A DNA stretch of 22,560 nucleotides. It comes from a virus. Of the stretch, positions 3,392 to 20,867 are shown one piece after another. Within the stretch, counting starts at the first letter, position 1. Every line of letters starts with the position of its first letter. The translations under genes were made by a program, and so were the position numbers. The DNA is taken from positions 1 through 22,560 of IMG/VR virus record IMGVR_UViG_3300028837_000175, one strand, 5' to 3'. The notes under the pieces are model-generated. The model did not search any database, had not been told where the DNA came from, and saw nothing but the letters and a program-made list of their open reading frames with translations.

Positions 3392-3540
3392 AGGAGCAAG
3401 TGAAGAAGGGGGAGGTCACTGCTTCGGAGGCTCGTGAGTGGTTGAAGCACGCAGCCATAGACAACAACGACTACCCCCGAGTGAAGGGGTGCCACACTTG
3501 GAAGTGGCTGAGTAGGAGGTGCGATGCCTCAGGAAATTGA
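3379..3540 (+). CDS. Small basic protein, 53 aa, linking gene in amidoligase unit
   Basis: A 53-codon frame starts at ATG 3379, overlaps the previous gene by 13 bases, and ends at TGA 3538-3540, overlapping the amidoligase gene by 17 bases. A purine-rich GGAAGGAGATGAAG lies directly upstream. The peptide is basic, with a helical N-terminal half (MRRLKEQVKKGEVTASEAREWLK) and two cysteines in the C-terminal half (GCHTWKWLSRRC). The VTASEAREWLKH stretch looks like a short helix-turn-helix or DNA-binding helix pair, though this is weak. Overlap on both sides argues that it is expressed and co-translated with its neighbours. The function is unknown. Confidence 0.5.
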   Translation: MRRLKEQVKKGEVTASEAREWLKHAAIDNNDYPRVKGCHTWKWLSRRCDASGN

Positions 3541-5053
3541 TTTCACCGGTACTCTACACTGCCGTGATTGCGGTAAGACAGGGGAGTACAAGACACAGGG
3601 TGGTAGGGTCACTGTCATTGAGGATGTAGAGGATTGGATGCTCTACCTCGGGCGGTACTCAACGGTGGAGGTGGTTGCAGTTGAGGATGCTACTGGCCGG
3701 CAGTTGATGGGTAACTGCCGCGCATCATGTGGTGACTGTGATCCAATGGACTTCACCCGTCAGTGCCCTTGGTGTGATGGCATCATCGACGAAGACTTCG
3801 AGCCAGGTATATACATGGATGGTTCGGATGAGGAGATATGCTACTCATGCTTTGAGGACAACGGGTTCAGATGTCAGGATTGCTCTTGCACCTACCACTA
3901 CAATGACTGTAACATCATCGACGAAGATCGCAGTGTGTGCCCTAGTTGCATTGAAGACTACTCATACTGTGACAACTGTGACAACTACACTGCTCATGGT
4001 AACATGAGGTACGCTGATGACATCATTGATATGCTTGACTCAGAGGGGAGGGACCAGGAGCTTGATGACTTTGATCCTGACTTTGAGCAGATGTGTTGCT
4101 ACTGTGCTGATGACAATGACTGGCCGAGTGCTAACATCCCTCACCTACCCGGTGGTCGCACACTCAACACCACGTTCACACCACCAGTTCGGTTTGGTAT
4201 CCTGAACTACACCTACAGGCCAAGCCCCATGATGGTGTACACTGCACAAGAAAAGGCCACGATGTATGACTTCGCTCTTGCTCACTCAAGGATTCAGGTG
4301 TTCGGCCTGGAGATAGAGGTTGAGAGTCAAGTGAGTAATGAGGACATCAACGCTCGGGCTGATGTCATCAACAAGATGGAAGAAGGTCAGCTGTTCTACT
4401 GTAAGTCTGATGTCTCCATCCGTAACGGATTCGAGATCGTCACTCACCCTGGCACCTTCGACTACTGGATGGGGAAGGGGAAGGACATACTCGAAGGGCT
4501 GTTCGATACCCTGAAGGCAGCAGGCTACACCTCATACCAGAGTGGGCGGTGCGGCCTTCACATCCACACCAACAAGTCACCGTTGACTAGGCTACAGATC
4601 TACAACATGGCCCGGTTCATACATGACAGGACAGTGACACCTAACCTTCGCAAGCTGTCCGGTCGCACTGACCAGCAGCTACTCGGCTACTCGTCACTGA
4701 ACTTGACTGACATCTATGACACCAACACTGGACGGTATGGTAAACCTAGCCCGGTTGACTATGCCAAGCAGATCAGACACTCATGGCGGATAGGGGATAG
4801 GGGTAGGGCCTTGAACCTATCCAACGCTGACACTGTGGAACTGAGGTTGTTCCGTGGCTCACTCAAGATAGAGAGACACAACGCTGGCCTTCAGTTCTAC
4901 AACACCCTGCTTGAGTTCGCCAACCCCACCAACGGTAAGCTCAAGGCCAGTGAGAAATCAAGGTGGCTTGACTATCGAGAATTCGTTGAACACTACCACC
5001 AACCCAAGGCCGTCAGAGAACTGAAGGCTCTACTACAGGAGGCCGGAATCTAA
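3524..5053 (+). CDS. Amidoligase-like (COOH-NH2 ligase) protein with cysteine-rich zinc domain, 509 aa
   Basis: The C-terminal half matches the glutamine-synthetase/GCS-like amidoligase fold. It has FGLEIEVES (260-268, metal-binding acidic residues), a GLHIHT motif (344-349; H346, H348) and ELRLFRG (439-445), the usual G-x-E-x-E, G-x-H-x-H and E-x-R-x-F signatures. Such enzymes use ATP to join an amine or ammonia to a carboxylate. The N-terminal 195 residues contain many CxxC pairs (C13/C16, C65 onward, C149/C152, C191-C194), predicted as tandem zinc fingers that could bind the target protein or nucleic acid. AGGAGG with 4-base spacing defines the ATG. Its stop overlaps the next ATG (TAATG), coupling it to a glutamine amidotransferase, a sensible ammonia source. 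The target is unknown. Family assignment is fairly firm; substrate is not. Confidence 0.75.
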   Translation: MPQEIDFTGTLHCRDCGKTGEYKTQGGRVTVIEDVEDWMLYLGRYSTVEVVAVEDATGRQLMGNCRASCGDCDPMDFTRQCPWCDGIIDEDFEPGIYMDGSDEEICYSCFEDNGFRCQDCSCTYHYNDCNIIDEDRSVCPSCIEDYSYCDNCDNYTAHGNMRYADDIIDMLDSEGRDQELDDFDPDFEQMCCYCADDNDWPSANIPHLPGGRTLNTTFTPPVRFGILNYTYRPSPMMVYTAQEKATMYDFALAHSRIQVFGLEIEVESQVSNEDINARADVINKMEEGQLFYCKSDVSIRNGFEIVTHPGTFDYWMGKGKDILEGLFDTLKAAGYTSYQSGRCGLHIHTNKSPLTRLQIYNMARFIHDRTVTPNLRKLSGRTDQQLLGYSSLNLTDIYDTNTGRYGKPSPVDYAKQIRHSWRIGDRGRALNLSNADTVELRLFRGSLKIERHNAGLQFYNTLLEFANPTNGKLKASEKSRWLDYREFVEHYHQPKAVRELKALLQEAGI

Positions 5054-6090
5054 TGTGTGTGATTGTCGTACAACCTGCCGGGGTTCAACTCTCCGGTAAC
5101 AAGTTCCGTAACTGTTGGGATAGGAACAGGGATGGGGGCGGGTACTCTTACGTTGATGATGGTAAGGTACTCATCAAGAAGGGGTACTTTGATTCAGTCA
5201 CCATGCTTGATGAGTACCGTGAAGATGTCAAGGCACATCCCGAGTCACCCTTCCTGATACACTTCAGGATCTCTACCTCTGGCTTGGTTGATGAGGTCAA
5301 CACTCATCCTCACCGGGTACGTCCTGACTTGGTGATGGCACACAACGGACACATCAGCGGGTATGGCAGCAAGGAACAGAGTGATACCCTTGAGTTCGTG
5401 GCTCTGGTACTGAGTCGTATGCCTGACAGGTGGGAGGATGATGAGCTTCAAGTCCACCTCATTGAGAGGTACATCAACGGTGACAAGATAGCCCTGCTCC
5501 GTGGTGATGGTGAGTATGGTATCCTCAATGAAGAGGCTGGCAACTGGCAGGATGGGCTGTGGTTCAGCAACAAGTCATGGACCAAGCCGCAGAAGGTGGT
5601 GCCTTGGGTCAACAACCCGAACAACCCTGCCAACAGGGGGAAGGCGGTAAACCCTACATCAAAAGGTCCTGGGGCGGGTGGGAATAGCGTCACTAGCCCA
5701 TCAGCATTCACTGCTTGTGGTTGGGATGATGATGATATGTATGGGGCATGGGGCAACGAGAGCCCTGACCTCATCACCTACTTCGATGAGACCTGTGCCT
5801 TCTGTGACATGAAGCTCAATGAGATGGACGCTGAGTTCTGTGTTGCACTGGATGCTTGGTACCCTGTGTGTATGGAGTGTGCAGTTGACAACGAGAAGGA
5901 ACTGGTTGAGTCCGGTGCCATGGCTGATGCGCTTGATGAGGTGTGGGATGAGGTGATTGATGCTTATGATGATGTCGAGCCGAATCAGATCCTACTGCAA
6001 GAGGTGGTCGACACTGACATCACTGAGGAAGACACGACACCTGTGACCTCCGGTCTTATGAGGCTCACTGCCAACGTGTTCGATTCGTAA
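5053..6090 (+). CDS. Class II glutamine amidotransferase (Ntn hydrolase) with C-terminal zinc finger, 345 aa
   Basis: The protein begins Met-Cys, and Cys2 would be the N-terminal nucleophile after Met removal. Further class II signatures follow at normal spacing: HFRISTSG with R72, and MAHNGHISG with N98-G99, which form the glutamine site and oxyanion hole. It should hydrolyse glutamine to glutamate and ammonia. There is no asparagine synthetase, GFAT or PRPP domain. Instead comes a Pro/Gly/Asn linker (about 190-220) and a zinc-finger-like segment (C248-x2-C251, C263, C273-x2-C276), then an acidic tail. The start overlaps the amidoligase stop by one base. I infer that the two proteins make one glutamine-dependent amidation system, with the zinc finger aiding substrate or partner binding. 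A stand-alone glutaminase role is possible but less likely. Confidence 0.8.
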   Translation: MCVIVVQPAGVQLSGNKFRNCWDRNRDGGGYSYVDDGKVLIKKGYFDSVTMLDEYREDVKAHPESPFLIHFRISTSGLVDEVNTHPHRVRPDLVMAHNGHISGYGSKEQSDTLEFVALVLSRMPDRWEDDELQVHLIERYINGDKIALLRGDGEYGILNEEAGNWQDGLWFSNKSWTKPQKVVPWVNNPNNPANRGKAVNPTSKGPGAGGNSVTSPSAFTACGWDDDDMYGAWGNESPDLITYFDETCAFCDMKLNEMDAEFCVALDAWYPVCMECAVDNEKELVESGAMADALDEVWDEVIDAYDDVEPNQILLQEVVDTDITEEDTTPVTSGLMRLTANVFDS

Positions 6091-6538: not shown

Positions 6539-6793
6539 ATGACTGCTACGGTGTGTCATCATACACGCAGTAAGGTCACAGATTCTAGATCAAGTGACCT
6601 CACTCACATCAGGTGCCGAAGGAGGCGTGAGTGTCTTGACTGTGGTGAAAGGTTCTCTACCGTGGAGGTGGATGCACTGGCGATGAAGCAGGTCAGGGGG
6701 TTCGAGTTGCACCTATGGATCAACAACAGAATCAAGGAGGCCAAGCGGTATGTTAGAGAGACAGATCTTGGCGGCACTCATCAGGCAGGATAG
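6539..6793 (+). CDS. NrdR-type zinc-ribbon protein, 84 aa
   Basis: Residues 6-40 closely follow the N-terminal zinc ribbon of the ribonucleotide reductase repressor Nrd[35 protein letters not shown] compares with the family's TRVxDSR...IRRRRECxxCGxRFTTxE. The second ligand pair C32-x2-C35 is intact. The first CxxC is replaced by C6-H7-H8, so the zinc would be held by Cys/His. The ATP-cone domain that senses dNTPs in true NrdR (total about 150 residues) is absent, and the rest is a basic helix. It therefore probably binds DNA through the ribbon without nucleotide sensing. The 3' end overlaps the helicase gene by 44 bases and contains its ribosome site AAGGAGG. Confidence 0.7.
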
Positions 6794-8922: not shown

Positions 8923-9676
8923 GAAACAAATGGACTGCCCTTCTTGTGGTAAGAAGAAGCACCTCTACCTGAACATCGAGAAGCAACTGTTCCACTGCTT
9001 CCGGTGTGGCTACAGTGGCCGGGCCAAGGACCTGGAGATGCAAGGGATCGCAGTGCCAAAGAAGACTGATGAGCTTCTGAAGCCATCGTCTCTCTCCTTC
9101 AGGGTAGCCGAGGGTATGTCCGACCCGCCTGAGTATTGGGATGCAGGCGATGACACGATTGATTACCTAGCAGATAGGGGGGTACATGTCACGATCCAGA
9201 AGTTGCTCCGAAAGAAAATCTATGAGACATCCAGAGGGATACTCTTTTTCTATCCCGACAGGGACTACTGGCAAGTACGTCACTGGTCAGCGTGGGCGCC
9301 CCCCCGTTGGCTTAACCCGACAGTGGCTCCGGTTACGCCTGCTGGTGGTGTGGTCTTTCATCTACGTACGCACTACGATAGCGACCGAGTGGTACTGGTG
9401 GAAGGTATTGTCGATGCCCTACGTGTTGCGCCGTTTGCGAATGTGGCCGCTGTACTCTCGACGAACATCCACGAGGCGCAGATATCTGGGCTGGCAGCCA
9501 TCTACGAGAGCTGCTCGATCATGCTCGACCGGGACGTGCACTTGTCCAAGCTTCTCGCACAAGGACGAAAGGTTGGAGCATACTTCAAACACAAGCACCT
9601 TGTCAAGTACCGGTCAGTAGATCCTGGCTCGGCAAGCGACGAGGAGATAGAGGAGGCACTACATGCTCACGACTGA
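8915..9676 (+). CDS. DnaG/T7-gp4-type primase (zinc ribbon plus TOPRIM), 253 aa
   Basis: Residues 8-31 form a primase zinc ribbon (C8-x2-C11 and C28-x2-C31, with the FHCFRCG pattern) that reads template for priming. A TOPRIM nucleotidyl-transfer core follows: VVLVEGIVDAL with the catalytic E163, and IMLDRDVHL with D205-x-D207, ending in a KHKHLVKY basic segment. It should make RNA primers for the UDG-PolA polymerase, working with the DnaB-like helicase. At 253 residues it is close to the primase half of T7 gp4 and much shorter than DnaG, so there is no helicase-interaction C-domain. ATG 8915 follows GAGGAAAAGA and overlaps the previous gene. The stop overlaps the next ATG by 14 bases. Confidence 0.85.
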   Translation: MAEKQMDCPSCGKKKHLYLNIEKQLFHCFRCGYSGRAKDLEMQGIAVPKKTDELLKPSSLSFRVAEGMSDPPEYWDAGDDTIDYLADRGVHVTIQKLLRKKIYETSRGILFFYPDRDYWQVRHWSAWAPPRWLNPTVAPVTPAGGVVFHLRTHYDSDRVVLVEGIVDALRVAPFANVAAVLSTNIHEAQISGLAAIYESCSIMLDRDVHLSKLLAQGRKVGAYFKHKHLVKYRSVDPGSASDEEIEEALHAHD

Positions 9677-9890
9677 TGAGTATCTCAATGAGTGGAACAA
9701 CGAAGACGAGAGCTATGACTGGGTGTGTTGCATCTGCCACTCCCCCACTGAGAAGGAGTACCGGGGGGTGTGTGTCAGCTGCGACCGGCCAGTGTGCCTT
9801 GACTGTGCCTTCAAGGTTGGCACCGAGCTTGAGTGTGAGGAGTGTTTCGCATCGATACCTACTGGTTGGCGATGCGCCTGGACTCCTTGA
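9663..9890 (+). CDS. Free-standing zinc-finger protein, 75 aa
   Basis: ATG 9663 has GAGGAGG 6 bases upstream and overlaps the primase stop. The protein is built around four CxxC pairs (WVCCICHS, CVSCDR, CLDCAF, CEECFA) with RING/PHD-like spacing, after an acidic start (DEYLNEWNNEDESYDW). It thus appears to be a compact treble-clef zinc domain with little else. Its last 56 bases overlap the start region of the UDG-polymerase gene in another frame. The first two Fe-S ligands (CxxC) of family 4 UDGs are missing from the downstream frame. A ribosomal frameshift joining this CEEC to the UDG domain is therefore conceivable, though a separate adaptor protein is simpler. Confidence 0.7.
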   Translation: MLTTDEYLNEWNNEDESYDWVCCICHSPTEKEYRGVCVSCDRPVCLDCAFKVGTELECEECFASIPTGWRCAWTP

Positions 9891-12132
9891 AGACGAGATG
9901 GGGTACCCCTTCGTTGGCGGTAGTGGTGGCCTTCTCAAGAAAGCGTTGGGTATCCTGGCTACCGAAGGTCTGGATCTCGATAGGGTTGGAGTAACAGATT
10001 CTGTGAAGTGTCGGCCGCAGCAAGACAAGCATGCACCGGCCAAGGCTAGACGTGAGTGCATCAAGTACCTTGAGCAAGAGGTCGCAGCATACGCACCGTG
10101 TGCCGTGATTGCAATGGGGTCGAAGGCTCTCTCCGCCCTCACCGATGGTGAGTTGACAGCCGTTAGCCCCAACCGTCTGAAGGTGCTTGACTACCAGGGC
10201 CTACCACTCATGGCGACCTTTCATCCAGCAGCCGTGCTGTATGATCGGACGAAGGCCCAAGACTTTCTGGATGACCTGCACGCCTACATGATCGCTGAGA
10301 TCTGGGACAAGCAGGAGTTCGACCAGCCCTTCGATGTCCGGCTGGTCAATGACCCGGAAGGTTTTGCTAGAGTACGGACGTTGCTCGAAGAGGAACCTGT
10401 CATCGGCTTGGACATCGAGACCGATGGGTTCACACCTCATGTCTTGACGGTGGCGCTTGCGATCTCAGGGATCAGCTATGTGCTACCGGTTCACCACATG
10501 GAGTCAAAGCTGGACGGTGAAGAAGTTATCCGATGGGTGGTTGAGCGCCATATCCTCAATCCAGATCGAACTCTTGTGGGACAGAACATCAAGTATGACT
10601 TGAGCATGATGATGAGAGCAGCCGGCCTGAGCACTACCCCAGTGCAATGCCGGACCAAGGACAGTATGCTGTACCACTACATGATGAATGAGCACAGCAC
10701 GGCGAGGAACCTGGACTACCTGTCCAGGGCCTTTACTAAACTTGGTGGCTACAAGGACGAGGTGCGCAATTCTGCGCTGGTTGAAGCCCCGATCCGGGAA
10801 CTAGCCCGGTACAACGGCAGAGATGCTGCGGTACCAGCACTCATCATAGAGTCCATACTCTCGCACCTGGATGCAACAGGCTACAGGTCAGAGGCGATGG
10901 AAGAATGCTACTCTCACCTCACCGCCTTCGTCTCCACGATGGAGGCAGCGGGGGTGAAGGTGGATCGTAAGCGGCTTGCGGTGGTGAAGGCTGAGCTTGA
11001 GGATGCCATCGAAGGTCTACGCATTGACGTTGAGAACATGGCACCGGAGGTGAATCTTGACAGTCCGAAACAGCTCTCCGAACATATATATGGGACACTG
11101 GCTCTGCCGATCCCAGACATCAAGGACGCCTGTACCCCGACTGGACAACCCTCAACCCGAGAGGATGTCCTCACCCACCTCAAACACCCATTCATTGACT
11201 CGCTACTGGAGTTTCGTGGACATGCCAAACTTCTCCGTACCTACGTCCGTGGAATTGAGGATAATCTCTGGCCCGATTCTACGGTCCACCCTCAGTTCTT
11301 CATCGCAAAGACTGACTTTGGAGGTACAGTTACCGGCCGGCTATCATGTAAACGTCCGGCCATGCAAACAATCCCCAGGGGATCGGACATTAGAAGTGTG
11401 TTCATCCCCCGAGAATCCAAGGGATGCCTATTGGAAGTCGATGCAGCGCAAGCCGAGCTCCGAATCGCCGCCTCTTTCAGTGGGGACCAAACTCTACTTG
11501 ACATCTTCCGAGGAGGGCATGACCCACATCAGGCTACCGCAGACCTTTGCGGAGTCGAACGACAAGTCGGAAAGACGATCAACTTTGCAAGCATTTATGG
11601 CGTATCTGCTTGGGGACTCACCGAAAAAGCTGGACTGCCCGAAGCCGTCGCCAAGCGGGTTGCGAAAACTATCAAGAGAGAGTGGGCTGGCCTCTATTCA
11701 TGGTTCGATGTGGTTAAGGCTACCGCTGTTCGTACCGGCGAAGTTAGCACAGAGTACGGACGATGGCGACGGGTTCCAGGTGCGGAACCCTCTACTCCCA
11801 AGGGCCGAATGCTCATGCGGGAAGCGGCCAACTTTGTCATCCAGGCGCCGGCTTCGGACTTCATTCAGACGCTCGGTGCGAGGCTTGCGCTCGACCTTGA
11901 GGGGGTGGCGGTACCGATTATGTCGAATCATGATGGACTGATGTTCGATGTCTTCGAGAAAAACAGACTACCACATGTAGTAGATACCCTCTTGACAACC
12001 CTCTCAGAGTTTCATAAGATAGTGCATGATGTGTTCAAGGTTCAGCTGGAGGTCCCCTTCGAGTGGGACATCAAGACTGGGCCCAACCTACAGCAGATGG
12101 ACAAATACAAAGGAGAAAGCGTATGCCAGTAG
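9835..12132 (+). CDS. polA-like: Family A DNA polymerase with N-terminal UDG-like domain, about 765 aa
   Basis: Domains in order: a family 4-like uracil-DNA glycosylase domain (1-165) with LLVGDAPGLLED, a KCRP...REC cysteine pair and the ATFHPAAVL motif; a DEDDy 3'-5' exonuclease with D193-x-E195, N251-x3-D255 and Y326-x3-D330 all present; and a PolA core with motif A D536AAQAE, motif B R576-x3-K580-x7-Y588G, and motif C H699-D700-G701. The O-helix position equal to E. coli Phe762 is F584. Motif C has Gly where most relatives have Glu. The UDG motif has Asp (GDAPG) where family 4 has Glu. The frame is open from 9676, but 9676-9830 is the shadow of the zinc-finger gene. GTG 9835 (or TTG 9829) is my best start, with no clear ribosome site. 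Confidence 0.85.
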   Translation: MRSVSHRYLLVGDAPGLLEDEMGYPFVGGSGGLLKKALGILATEGLDLDRVGVTDSVKCRPQQDKHAPAKARRECIKYLEQEVAAYAPCAVIAMGSKALSALTDGELTAVSPNRLKVLDYQGLPLMATFHPAAVLYDRTKAQDFLDDLHAYMIAEIWDKQEFDQPFDVRLVNDPEGFARVRTLLEEEPVIGLDIETDGFTPHVLTVALAISGISYVLPVHHMESKLDGEEVIRWVVERHILNPDRTLVGQNIKYDLSMMMRAAGLSTTPVQCRTKDSMLYHYMMNEHSTARNLDYLSRAFTKLGGYKDEVRNSALVEAPIRELARYNGRDAAVPALIIESILSHLDATGYRSEAMEECYSHLTAFVSTMEAAGVKVDRKRLAVVKAELEDAIEGLRIDVENMAPEVNLDSPKQLSEHIYGTLALPIPDIKDACTPTGQPSTREDVLTHLKHPFIDSLLEFRGHAKLLRTYVRGIEDNLWPDSTVHPQFFIAKTDFGGTVTGRLSCKRPAMQTIPRGSDIRSVFIPRESKGCLLEVDAAQAELRIAASFSGDQTLLDIFRGGHDPHQATADLCGVERQVGKTINFASIYGVSAWGLTEKAGLPEAVAKRVAKTIKREWAGLYSWFDVVKATAVRTGEVSTEYGRWRRVPGAEPSTPKGRMLMREAANFVIQAPASDFIQTLGARLALDLEGVAVPIMSNHDGLMFDVFEKNRLPHVVDTLLTTLSEFHKIVHDVFKVQLEVPFEWDIKTGPNLQQMDKYKGESVCQ

Positions 12133-15901: not shown

Positions 15902-16041
15902 GCAGCTACTTGGTTGACAAGATCGTAGACCTCATCATCAAACACTTGGCGCCAAAGGTCGACGGCCTAGAAGCTCAGCTTCTGGCCGATGACATCGTCG
16001 CCCTGGTTGATGAGTGGATCTCTACTGATCTCTATGCGTAG
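15898..16041 (+). CDS. Small helical protein, 47 aa, last gene of rightward block
   Basis: A 47-codon frame starts at ATG 15898 (ATGA overlap with the previous gene) and ends at TAG 16039-16041. It is acidic and amphipathic (YLVDKIVDLIIKHLAPKV, then EAQLLADDIVALVDEWI), resembling a short helical-hairpin protein. The C-terminal helix of the preceding protein has similar composition, so the two may interact. Its end overlaps the 3' end of the converging leftward gene by 10 bases (16032-16041). The function is unknown. Confidence 0.55.
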   Translation: MSSYLVDKIVDLIIKHLAPKVDGLEAQLLADDIVALVDEWISTDLYA

Positions 16042-16271
16042 CGGTCGAGGGCGTTGTTGAACTTGTCAACATGCCACTGGTTCACATACGCCCCTCGATC
16101 ATTCTTTCTTACTGAGCCTGCGTTGTAGGCTGCGACCGCATCTGTGATGTTACCATCGTACCGATCCAGCTGGTAGCGGATGTATGCGGCAGTCAGATAG
16201 ATGTTCACTTCGGGATCGTGAAGGAGTTTGTTGAACGATGACTCACCTCGTGTGGATAGTTCTTCTACTGC
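16032..16271 (-). pseudogene. Lytic transglycosylase, C-terminal fragment (cut by adapter)
   Basis: Read leftward, residues following the artefact are AVEELSTRGESSFNKL, DPEVNIYLTAAYIRYQLDRY and ITDAVAAYNAGSVRK. The DPxxNIxxxxxYxxxxLxxY and A-x-x-AYNAG motifs are typical of the C-terminal half of SLT/lytic transglycosylases, which cleave the glycan chain of peptidoglycan. The part that should carry the catalytic Glu and the GLMQ motif is missing. It should precede residue 1, exactly where the sequencing adapter (16272-16337) is joined. I treat this as an assembly-broken gene, not a natural pseudogene. The apparent GTG start with MYKRQ is adapter translation. In phages such enzymes open the cell wall for DNA entry or lysis. 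Confidence 0.8.
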
Positions 16272-16337
16272 CTGTCTCTTATACACATCTCCGAGCCCAC
16301 GAGACTAGGCATGATCTCGTATGCCGTCTTCTGCTTG
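16272..16337 (+). other. Illumina Nextera adapter contamination (assembly artefact)
   Basis: These 66 bases are a full read-through adapter: the 19-base transposase mosaic end (16272-16290, CTGTCTCTTATACACATCT), the Nextera read-2 portion (16291-16305, CCGAGCCCACGAGAC), an 8-base index (16306-16313, TAGGCATG, which I recall as Nextera i7 N706), and the reverse-complemented P7 end (16314-16337, ATCTCG...CTGCTTG). In the leftward frames it translates to the known artefact peptides KQKTAYEIM and MCIRDR or MYKRQ. It is not part of the genome. The flanking sequences may be non-adjacent, or may be separated by an unknown missing segment. Confidence 0.98.
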
Positions 16338-16519
16338 AAATACTCCAGCACAGCCGAGGCGTCCGTGTGGATCATCTGGTTGTCAACGTGCTTGTACGCG
16401 GTCATGCCGAACGCAACCACGGCAACCAAACAGCTGCCCACAATGGTAGCTGTCACCTTCGCTAGTAGTGATCCATCTTTGAACATGCAGTGTATCCCCT
16501 TACGGATTAGACGCTCCAT
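16338..16519 (-). CDS. Membrane-anchored N-terminal fragment, probably of the lytic transglycosylase
   Basis: The leftward frame starts at ATG 16519 (GGAG 4 bases upstream) and overlaps the previous stop. ATG 16486, with AAGGGG overlapping that stop, is an equally plausible start. A basic start is followed by one membrane segment (VTATIVGSCLVAVVAFGM), then a short polar stretch ending DASAVLEY at the adapter boundary. Everything after that in the open frame is adapter translation. Given the orientation and the transglycosylase C-terminus just beyond the adapter, the simplest reading is one membrane-anchored transglycosylase gene with a missing middle. The frames of the two fragments differ, so continuity cannot be shown. 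Confidence 0.6.
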
Positions 16520-16799: not shown

Positions 16800-19700
16800 T
16801 TACTCCCGTAGGTGTTGTCGCAGACGTTGGAGCGGGTTCTGCGGAGGCGGTGCCCCCTCTTCGAACTGCTCAAACGGGTTGACCTCTAGCTCCCCCTCAG
16901 TGGGGTTCGTAGCGGCCAGTTCTTTTGCGTTCAATGCTATGTCACCAGCTACCTTGGCCCCTCGTGACTGTGTGAGGTCCATGATGATCTGGTTGTAGCG
17001 CTGCCAGTCCTCTCGCCGTACTGCGTCTGCTACCATCGCGGTGAGCTGACCGGTACTGAGGCCCTTGGACAGCGGGAGTGCGGTACCGACTATGCCGAGT
17101 ACCAGCTTCTGGTCCCAGTCCAGGCCACGTAGTGCAGGGTTGGTGAAGGCTCCCAAGCTGAAGGGAGTGAAGCCACCTATCGCGTTGTTGACCGCGATGG
17201 TAAACCCGTCATCCCACCCCATCTCCTTCCCTTCTTTCAAGTACCGGGCCTTCTGGATAGACACATCCATGATAGTGCTGAATGGTACCTGAATCCAGGG
17301 CATGATCTTCCTGCCCAGAAAGGTGCCGATGAAGGCTCCGTCACTGTGGACATAGGGCTTGGCGCCGTGGTAGCCGGGCCGGAAGCCCATCGAACCCCCA
17401 GCCTGGAGGCCGGGCTGTGCGCCTACCGCAGTCCCGAGTTCGCGGAACTGTTTGCCAATGTGCCACATGATGGGTCGGCCGTCCTCATCTACCTGCCCAG
17501 TGTCTACGTAGAAGACCTTCTTGCCGGGCTCGTTCTCCCACATGTAGTGGCCGGATAGTACCTTGTTCATGATGTTCGCGTAGAAGGCCCAGCCCATCAG
17601 GGCGTTGCGCCAGTGGCGGAGGCCCATGATACCTCGTGCGGGGTTGGAGGATCGGAGGCCGGGGATCGCCTGAGCAAATGACAGGCTGGCCCGGATAGCC
17701 GAAGCGTTCCAGTCCACAGAAGTAAACGCAAAGTTAAGTTGCTTGAGGGTGTTGGGCTTGGACATCCAGTTCTCGATCCACCCTCGGGTGTGTGTCTCGA
17801 ATGCCTGGGAGCCGAACTCGTCGTTGATGTAGGAGCCGACCGCCCGAGACAGCGCCTCGTCGTCCATCTCCTGTAGCCCCTTCTTCATCCAGCGGAGGTT
17901 CTCAGGGACGATCCTGCCCATGCCCCCACCCGTGTCTCGGATCATCTTGAGGTTGTTGTACGTGATGTCGTACGCGATGACCTTCATGGGGGTGTGGTAC
18001 TTGGACCAGATCGCAGTGTCGAACCACTCCTGCATCTTGAGGAGCTTCTTCACTGAGCCCTTAGCCAGCCGCTTCCCACCGATGGTGGGGGCTTTGGAGG
18101 CCAGCCTGTTGGCTAGCTCCGAGAACTGGTCAGCCATGATGTCATTCATGGGTGCGCTCAGCTTGACCCCTGCTTCAGAAGCAGAGGTGAAGGCCTCCTT
18201 GTAGCTGTTGGGGGTGACTAGGTGGGCAAGCGCTTCTCCATCTGCCCAGCCTGACCCCCTTGCGAGGAGGTTGTTCTTGGCGAGGGACAGGTTGACCCTC
18301 ATGCCTTGGATGGGATTGAGCAGGGCCACACTTGACTCAGCCAGTGAGTACATGTGGAACAGGGTGAACATGAAGTTCGACCGCTTGGCGATGGCTGACA
18401 ACGCCATCATCCCACCTAGCTCAGTGGGCTGCTCGATGATGTTGCGTAGGTGTTTGCCCACCTCCTCATGGACGTAGACCGTGGTGTTCTTCCTCACACC
18501 CTCCGGTACTTCCTCCCTCATAATGCGGTCAGTGAAGGCGGAACGGAAGCGTACGTACCCCTTGGGCACGCCCTGGTGGGGTGTCAGGCGCACGAACGCC
18601 GGTAGGTCCATGCTCTTGGTAGCCAAACCGAATTCGTTGAGCTCTTTGACGAGCTTCTTGGTAGCGAGGACTCGTGCCAGCTGCTGCTCCATCAGGCCGT
18701 ACATCACTGCGATGTCGTCCGTCCGGGGGGTGAGCTTGGCCTTGGTCATGCCCTCGTGGTAGGTGTTGAAGAAGCGTGGCCGCTCCGACCCATGCTTGAT
18801 CGGTAGCTCGTAGTAGGGGATGGACCCCAGCTTGGCCTCGACATCCTTGATCGGCTCGTCCCACATGTGGTGCAACCAGTTCTTCACGTACTGATACTCA
18901 CCGTCACCGATCTGGACGTTGAGCTCGTTCATCTCCTTGAAGAGATTGTCGAACCGGTCCCGTAGGTAGTTCTTCCACCACACTGCTTGCTCGAAGTGTC
19001 CGCTGTCCTTAAGGCGCTGGACTACCCCAGCGTAGGTATCCTTCTCCCCCTTCGCCAACCGCCAGGGGTTGGCCGTCTCTTCGAGGAAGGGAATCATGTC
19101 CTGCCGGATAGCCGGGTCAGGTAGGGCGGTCTTCATCCTCTGGTAATCTACCCCCACTTGACGGAGGTAAGTCTGCTGCTCGTTGAGGAAGGAACCGGCG
19201 ATGCGGTAGGCTTCCTTGGCGTTGCCCGTCATCTTCCATACTGGGTCGAAGAAGCGAGGCATGCGCCACCGCTTGGAGTTCGGGTCCTTCGCCACTGCCT
19301 TCGCCACCCTACCAGCCTCCTTGACGGCGGGGGACAGCGCGTTCTTCTGGCCTGACAGCTGGGCGAACTCAGTCAGGAACTGGTGGGTCTGTCGTGCCTG
19401 AGCAGCTAGTGCTGGCTCAGCGTAGTGTCGTCCGACCTCGCCTTGTCGGACCATTGTGTCGATCTCTTTCCACAGGGCCGTGGCCTTCTGCGGCACGAGG
19501 TGTCCGAGGCCGGCGTTCTGGACTGCTGCATCCGCTGCGGCCGCTCCTCGGAGCTTTGTCATCTGCTCCTTCGTGACGTAGGGTAGCTTCGTATCCTGGA
19601 AAGGACGGGGCTCGAACACGGCGGTGGGAACTCCACCTACCTTGCCCTTCCTTGTCATAGCAGCTGCACCCTTGCGCTCGGCGATATACCGGAGGCGCCG

Positions 19701-20867
19701 GGTCTCAGCTACCTGCACTTCCCCGAAGATGTTGCTGATGATCTCATCCATGCTGGGGATGCGGGGTGCCCCTGGTGGTTGGGCGCCCATGCGTGCTGCC
19801 CGCAGCTCAGCGTTGACTAGGCCCTCGGCAAAGGCGGCACCGTCAACAGCCGGGTGCGCCCCCCTGCCTGTTCGGGCTAGGAGGTCGAGGGACATACCGA
19901 GCTTGGTCTTCGCCCACTTCCCCCCTTGCGCCACACCTCTCAGTACCCGGCCAGCGTTGCCTGAGCCTACCAGGGCACCGATGCCTAGCGTGACGCCCTT
20001 CACTGTGAGGCCAGTACCTAGGGCAACTAGCTTGGCCGTCTTCCCTACAGGGTTGATGGCAGCAGCTCCCGCGTTGGCGGCGACACTGCCTAGACCCATA
20101 GAGAGGCCAGGGCCGAAGGCTGAGATCTCGTCCACCCCCCGCTGCTTGTTCAGGGCGTTTATGTACTCTGCCTCGACCTCGATCAGATCGTTGTACGACT
20201 GGAAGTAGGGCTCCATAAGCCGGTACGATAGCGGAAGATCCTCCGTACCGTGCCGAGTAATAGGGCCAGTGGGGGCCTCCCCGGTAATCAGCGAGGTCAG
20301 GTTCTGCGGCGCTGCGATTGCCTCATCCTCCACATACTGGGGGTTTCTGCCAGCGGCCATGTTCCAGACCGCTGAGCGACCCTCTTTGCCCCCCGTCCAC
20401 ACGGCCCGACCTAGGGCCTTGGCCGTGCGAATCGGGTGGCGTACTGCTTCGAACTGAGCCTTGATCCCTGTGTTCAGGAACTCGTTGGTCTTGAGAGGGT
20501 GCCTCACCGGGTAGGTGAGGGCCTCCCCAACCAGCGCGATCATACCAGGGAACAGGTTGATCTCTGACTTGATGGCCTCCGTGATGACCGCGTCCTTGTA
20601 CTCGATCTTCTTCTGGTCAACAATCTCATCCCAGTAGTTGTCCACCGGGATGTCGTAGTTGGTACCGTCTGGCTTCTTCCAGCCACGGGTGAACATATGG
20701 CTATCCCGGAACCAATTGTGGATCTGCTCCGGGGGGTTCTCCTGAATCAACCCGTCGATCATGGCCTGAATATCTACCTGGTTCGTGGTCGGACCAGTAC
20801 CCATCCCAGGGTTCGCCATCTGGTCATTGTACGAACTGAGCAGATCGTTTACTAGAGGACTCGCCAT
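16800..20867 (-). CDS. Giant putative internal virion/ejection protein, 1355 aa
   Basis: This is the largest gene in the window. No enzymatic motif is recognisable. The protein is mostly helical, with a Gly/Ala-rich hydrophobic zone around residues 245-305 (GLGSVAANAGAAAINPVG and TVKGVTLGIGALVGSG), another hydrophobic region around 825-850 (FTLFHMYSLAESSVALLNP) and a third near 1255. Very large size, scattered membrane-compatible stretches and position after two smaller virion-like genes fit T7 gp16-type ejection proteins. Those form a channel across the envelope and in T7 carry a transglycosylase domain. Here that activity would be supplied by the separate gene downstream. Start and upstream stop are adjacent (TAAATG), with GAAGGACA as ribosome site. 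A structural role is inferred from context. Confidence 0.6.
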   Translation of the reverse strand: MASPLVNDLLSSYNDQMANPGMGTGPTTNQVDIQAMIDGLIQENPPEQIHNWFRDSHMFTRGWKKPDGTNYDIPVDNYWDEIVDQKKIEYKDAVITEAIKSEINLFPGMIALVGEALTYPVRHPLKTNEFLNTGIKAQFEAVRHPIRTAKALGRAVWTGGKEGRSAVWNMAAGRNPQYVEDEAIAAPQNLTSLITGEAPTGPITRHGTEDLPLSYRLMEPYFQSYNDLIEVEAEYINALNKQRGVDEISAFGPGLSMGLGSVAANAGAAAINPVGKTAKLVALGTGLTVKGVTLGIGALVGSGNAGRVLRGVAQGGKWAKTKLGMSLDLLARTGRGAHPAVDGAAFAEGLVNAELRAARMGAQPPGAPRIPSMDEIISNIFGEVQVAETRRLRYIAERKGAAAMTRKGKVGGVPTAVFEPRPFQDTKLPYVTKEQMTKLRGAAAADAAVQNAGLGHLVPQKATALWKEIDTMVRQGEVGRHYAEPALAAQARQTHQFLTEFAQLSGQKNALSPAVKEAGRVAKAVAKDPNSKRWRMPRFFDPVWKMTGNAKEAYRIAGSFLNEQQTYLRQVGVDYQRMKTALPDPAIRQDMIPFLEETANPWRLAKGEKDTYAGVVQRLKDSGHFEQAVWWKNYLRDRFDNLFKEMNELNVQIGDGEYQYVKNWLHHMWDEPIKDVEAKLGSIPYYELPIKHGSERPRFFNTYHEGMTKAKLTPRTDDIAVMYGLMEQQLARVLATKKLVKELNEFGLATKSMDLPAFVRLTPHQGVPKGYVRFRSAFTDRIMREEVPEGVRKNTTVYVHEEVGKHLRNIIEQPTELGGMMALSAIAKRSNFMFTLFHMYSLAESSVALLNPIQGMRVNLSLAKNNLLARGSGWADGEALAHLVTPNSYKEAFTSASEAGVKLSAPMNDIMADQFSELANRLASKAPTIGGKRLAKGSVKKLLKMQEWFDTAIWSKYHTPMKVIAYDITYNNLKMIRDTGGGMGRIVPENLRWMKKGLQEMDDEALSRAVGSYINDEFGSQAFETHTRGWIENWMSKPNTLKQLNFAFTSVDWNASAIRASLSFAQAIPGLRSSNPARGIMGLRHWRNALMGWAFYANIMNKVLSGHYMWENEPGKKVFYVDTGQVDEDGRPIMWHIGKQFRELGTAVGAQPGLQAGGSMGFRPGYHGAKPYVHSDGAFIGTFLGRKIMPWIQVPFSTIMDVSIQKARYLKEGKEMGWDDGFTIAVNNAIGGFTPFSLGAFTNPALRGLDWDQKLVLGIVGTALPLSKGLSTGQLTAMVADAVRREDWQRYNQIIMDLTQSRGAKVAGDIALNAKELAATNPTEGELEVNPFEQFEEGAPPPQNPLQRLRQHLRE

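Follow-up and report, generated by a model that had tools for sequence, protein, structure and literature searches.

An untrimmed Nextera adapter and a false join within a metagenomic phage contig

The window analysed here is an entire IMG/VR virus record of 22,560 bases. Its positions 16272–16337 raise the question of whether these 66 bases belong to the phage genome and whether the sequences on either side of them can be read as continuous. Our answer is that the 66 bases are a laboratory and assembly artefact without any biology. We hold it practically certain that an untrimmed Nextera library adapter was retained in this metagenomic phage contig and that the join made at this point is false.

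The 66 bases were identified as the Nextera i7 adapter in the read-through direction, with no mismatch at the 58 fixed positions. On the plus strand, the 19-base mosaic end CTGTCTCTTATACACATCT (16272–16290) is followed by the 15-base N7/read-2 part CCGAGCCCACGAGAC (16291–16305), the 8-base i7 index TAGGCATG (16306–16313) and the 24-base complement of Illumina P7, ATCTCGTATGCCGTCTTCTGCTTG (16314–16337). The three constant parts match exactly and the index is a standard one, which we take to be Nextera XT N706. All the fixed bases, their order and their spacing are therefore those of an Illumina Nextera or Nextera XT i7 (N7xx) adapter with P7. A search allowing up to three mismatches located a single mosaic end in the window, and it was carried by none of 100 dinucleotide-preserving shuffles of the window. 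No other 12-mer of P5, P7, TruSeq or Nextera was found elsewhere in the window.

The same pattern, with any index, was found in at least 119 IMG/VR stretches and in at least 120 stretches of a collection holding one genome per species. Adapter matches were also found in 41 GenBank phage records, in nine plasmid records and in one of 5,426 complete Escherichia coli genomes. Among the matches listed, 129 of the 139 distinct IMG/VR copies lay within 15 bases of an end of the fetched DNA, six lay at 16–300 bases and four lay more than 300 bases inside; the numbers for the same three classes in the genome collection were 77, 47 and 1 of the 125 copies listed. Nearly all the listed copies are thus located at contig ends, and they point outward, as would leftovers of reads overrunning short fragments; a few are internal like that of the window. 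Twelve different indices were seen among the copies tallied. The commonest was TAGGCATG (48 of 140), which was also present on three of the four internal IMG/VR copies among the matches listed. Internal matches were also noted in bacterial genomes: in Streptomyces mexicanus (NZ_LR732544.1), an adapter followed by a long poly-A lies within a 7.16 Mb contig (positions 4232–4297 of the fetched stretch), and in the complete E. coli genome NZ_CP069692.1, an adapter-like stretch lies within ybjT (3167112–3167168).

In the adapter copies tallied, the bases that follow P7 are mostly poly-A, the usual mark of reads that have overrun a short library fragment. In the window, P7 is followed by AAATACTCC, i.e. 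by three As (16338–16340, plus strand), whereas other contaminated contigs typically have a run of about ten. These three As may be the first genomic bases or a remnant of the usual poly-A. The window adapter thus differs from the usual Nextera i7 contamination in lying inside the contig rather than at its end and in having AAA instead of a long poly-A. Contig-end position and poly-A are usual and not obligatory, and a minority of records lack them likewise. The earlier note had described a complete adapter with its parts in exact order over 66 bases, a sequence that could not be natural and that had no poly-A after it. The first two statements are borne out, the second by the exact match and by the outward-oriented copies in hundreds of unrelated contigs. 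The third holds in that no long run is present, and has to be qualified for the three As.

A natural insertion into the phage genome would have to account for the exact order of synthetic oligonucleotides, for a standard index and for the recurrence of the pattern, chiefly at the ends of contigs, across hundreds of unrelated records; we consider it vanishingly improbable. A natural Tn5-like insertion was considered and rejected, as the 9-base target-site duplication is absent around the insert: by eye, the flanks TTCTACTGC and AAATACTCC differ. A search for repeats of at least 12 bases common to both flanks within 1500 bases found none.

The adapter splits one minus-strand gene, the pieces of which lie on either side of it on the same strand and in the correct order. 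Positions 16032–16271 (minus strand) encode the C-terminal half of a cell-wall-digesting enzyme, an SLT lytic transglycosylase; the stop codon is included, without which the piece spans 16035–16271. The translation of this half begins with AVEELSTRGESSFNKLLHDPEVNIYLTAAYIRYQLDRYDGNITDAVAAYNAG. It matched Pfam PF01464 (SLT) at model positions 57–109 with an E-value of 8.8e-9 and a score of 35.4 bits, above the gathering score of 21.3. It also matched PHROG families of lytic tail proteins, endolysins and transglycosylases. The N-terminal piece occupies 16338–16519 (minus strand). Its 60 codons encode MERLIRKGIHCMFKDGSLLAKVTATIVGSCLVAVVAFGMTAYKHVDNQMIHTDASAVLEY, which contains a hydrophobic, membrane-anchor-like stretch and ends in DASAVLEY; searches of Pfam, PHROGs and GenBank phages gave no match for this piece.

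The motifs DPEVNI and AAYNAG are common to the C-terminal half and to SLT (PF01464) lytic transglycosylases. These enzymes also have a catalytic half, which the window gene lacks at the join. When the window piece was aligned with three phage transglycosylases, it was seen to start just after the ES.....SP.GA.GLMQLMP.T block, so that the catalytic glutamate and the GLMQ block are absent at the join. The glutamate of the ES...GLMQ block is the catalytic residue of the SLT family, and this segment is presumably present in the real phage. When the adapter was removed and the flanks were joined directly, the two pieces were out of frame. Because the frame stays broken without the adapter and no target-site duplication is present, the adapter is a foreign sequence and the join a false one; sequence has probably been lost. 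From the alignment with relatives, the missing conserved segment would amount to about 30 codons or more, and about 100 bases or more of real phage sequence were probably lost at the join.

The claim that the contig join is unsupported agrees with the finding of a conserved gene broken at this point and deprived of its catalytic segment. It had also been claimed that any protein predicted here is false; this holds for the adapter-encoded tails but is otherwise too broad. Two composite ORFs of 84 amino acids each run into the adapter on the minus strand. The first (16265–16519) is a false composite with the adapter-encoded tail KQKTAYEIMPSLVGSEMCIRD; the second (16032–16286) starts with the adapter-encoded residues MYKRQ and is phage sequence for the rest. 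The adapter codons alone are false. The flanking pieces look like genuine transglycosylase halves and probably represent the authentic termini of a single gene. The phage may have a membrane-anchored transglycosylase at this site; an origin of the pieces from different genes appears improbable.

Two different phages or organisms could also have been fused into a chimera with the adapter as its seam, the left 16.3 kb being unrelated to the right 6.2 kb. With the adapter in between, nothing directly supports the join, and the reading frame does not continue from one side to the other. However, apparent N- and C-terminal halves of a transglycosylase stand on either side, on the same strand and in the right order. 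The GC content is 0.558 on one side of the seam and 0.579 on the other, and the tetranucleotide correlation across it is 0.72–0.75, the two sides being as similar as other parts of the contig. As neither measure changes at the seam beyond the variation of the contig, a single genome is favoured over a chimera of two, without being proven; the chimera is unlikely. We infer a common origin of the two flanks in a single genome and a single gene.

An intact copy of the gene in a close relative was searched for in IMG/VR with the SLT half, the N-terminal half, a 1355-amino-acid protein and the DNA polymerase of the window, and with the same regions in GenBank phages; no close relative was found. 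The N-terminal half with its adapter tail gave 49 matches in IMG/VR, all of them to the adapter-coded tail.

As controls, two deposited genomes of phages that carry an internal adapter were each compared with a near-identical relative. Escherichia phage vB_EcoM_G4507 (NC_054919.1/MK327946.1) carries a complete internal Nextera adapter at 76694–76759, followed by poly-A. This adapter cuts gene 5 into two CDS, KMC11_gp260 and gp261, both annotated as ‘baseplate hub subunit and tail lysozyme’; the same gene is intact in phage ECP52, which was used as the reference. The left flank matches ECP52 to the last base before the adapter, and the match resumes after the poly-A 63 bases back, so that 63 genomic bases are duplicated relative to ECP52. 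A lysozyme-bearing structural gene is thus split by an internal Nextera adapter into two annotated pieces, and the window gene is split likewise. The two cases differ in that vB_EcoM_G4507 has a long poly-A and flanks overlapping by 63 bases, whereas the window lacks a long poly-A and has sequence missing. In Pseudomonas phage SaPL (MH973725.1), an internal Nextera adapter lies at 6641–6706 within an annotated hypothetical protein and, by comparison with phage SA22, 264 genomic bases are duplicated around it. These mis-joins indicate that internal adapters mark wrong joins, with sequence duplicated in the two controls and lost in the window.

The proposed course of events is as follows. A short Tn5-cut fragment would have ended at 16271 and the read would have run on into the i7 adapter. 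The adapter would have been left untrimmed and the assembler would have extended the contig with it. From this dead end, a wrong connection would then have been made to the following piece of what is most likely the same phage genome, with omission of a stretch of the transglycosylase gene. Alternatively, the adapter may have been part of a real chimeric library molecule rather than of a join made by the assembler. Such molecules, arising by ligation or PCR, exist, and the absence of poly-A would fit this origin. Nevertheless, a contig consensus usually requires several reads, and the comparison set is dominated by adapters located at contig ends and followed by poly-A; we consider this origin quite doubtful.

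Other features of the contig were recorded. One ORF at 9676–12132 (plus strand) combines domains of the uracil-DNA glycosylase superfamily, of a 3'-5' exonuclease and of a family A DNA polymerase; distant phage polymerases align with it from query residue 27 or 36 onward, with an identity of about 25%. The region 3524–6090 (plus strand) contains an amidoligase-like protein (PHROG 2443; Pfam below the cut-off) and, adjoining it, a protein starting with Met-Cys that has a weak class-II glutamine amidotransferase match. For the 1355-amino-acid protein encoded at 16800–20867 (minus strand), Pfam, PHROGs and GenBank phages gave no match. It and the neighbouring 420-amino-acid protein may belong to the virion of a phage that has few relatives.

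Nothing was found in the literature on the tell-tale peptides MCIRDR and KQKTAYEI and, judged by titles, a broader literature search found no paper devoted to this adapter artefact. The relevance of the finding is one of data hygiene only. In viral, plasmid and MAG collections, unscreened adapters give rise to false ORFs (KQKTAYEIM..., ...MCIRDR) and to genes that are wrongly split. Where an adapter lies internally, the join it marks is not to be relied on. In the present contig, it would lead an annotator to describe a lysis-type enzyme that lacks an active site.
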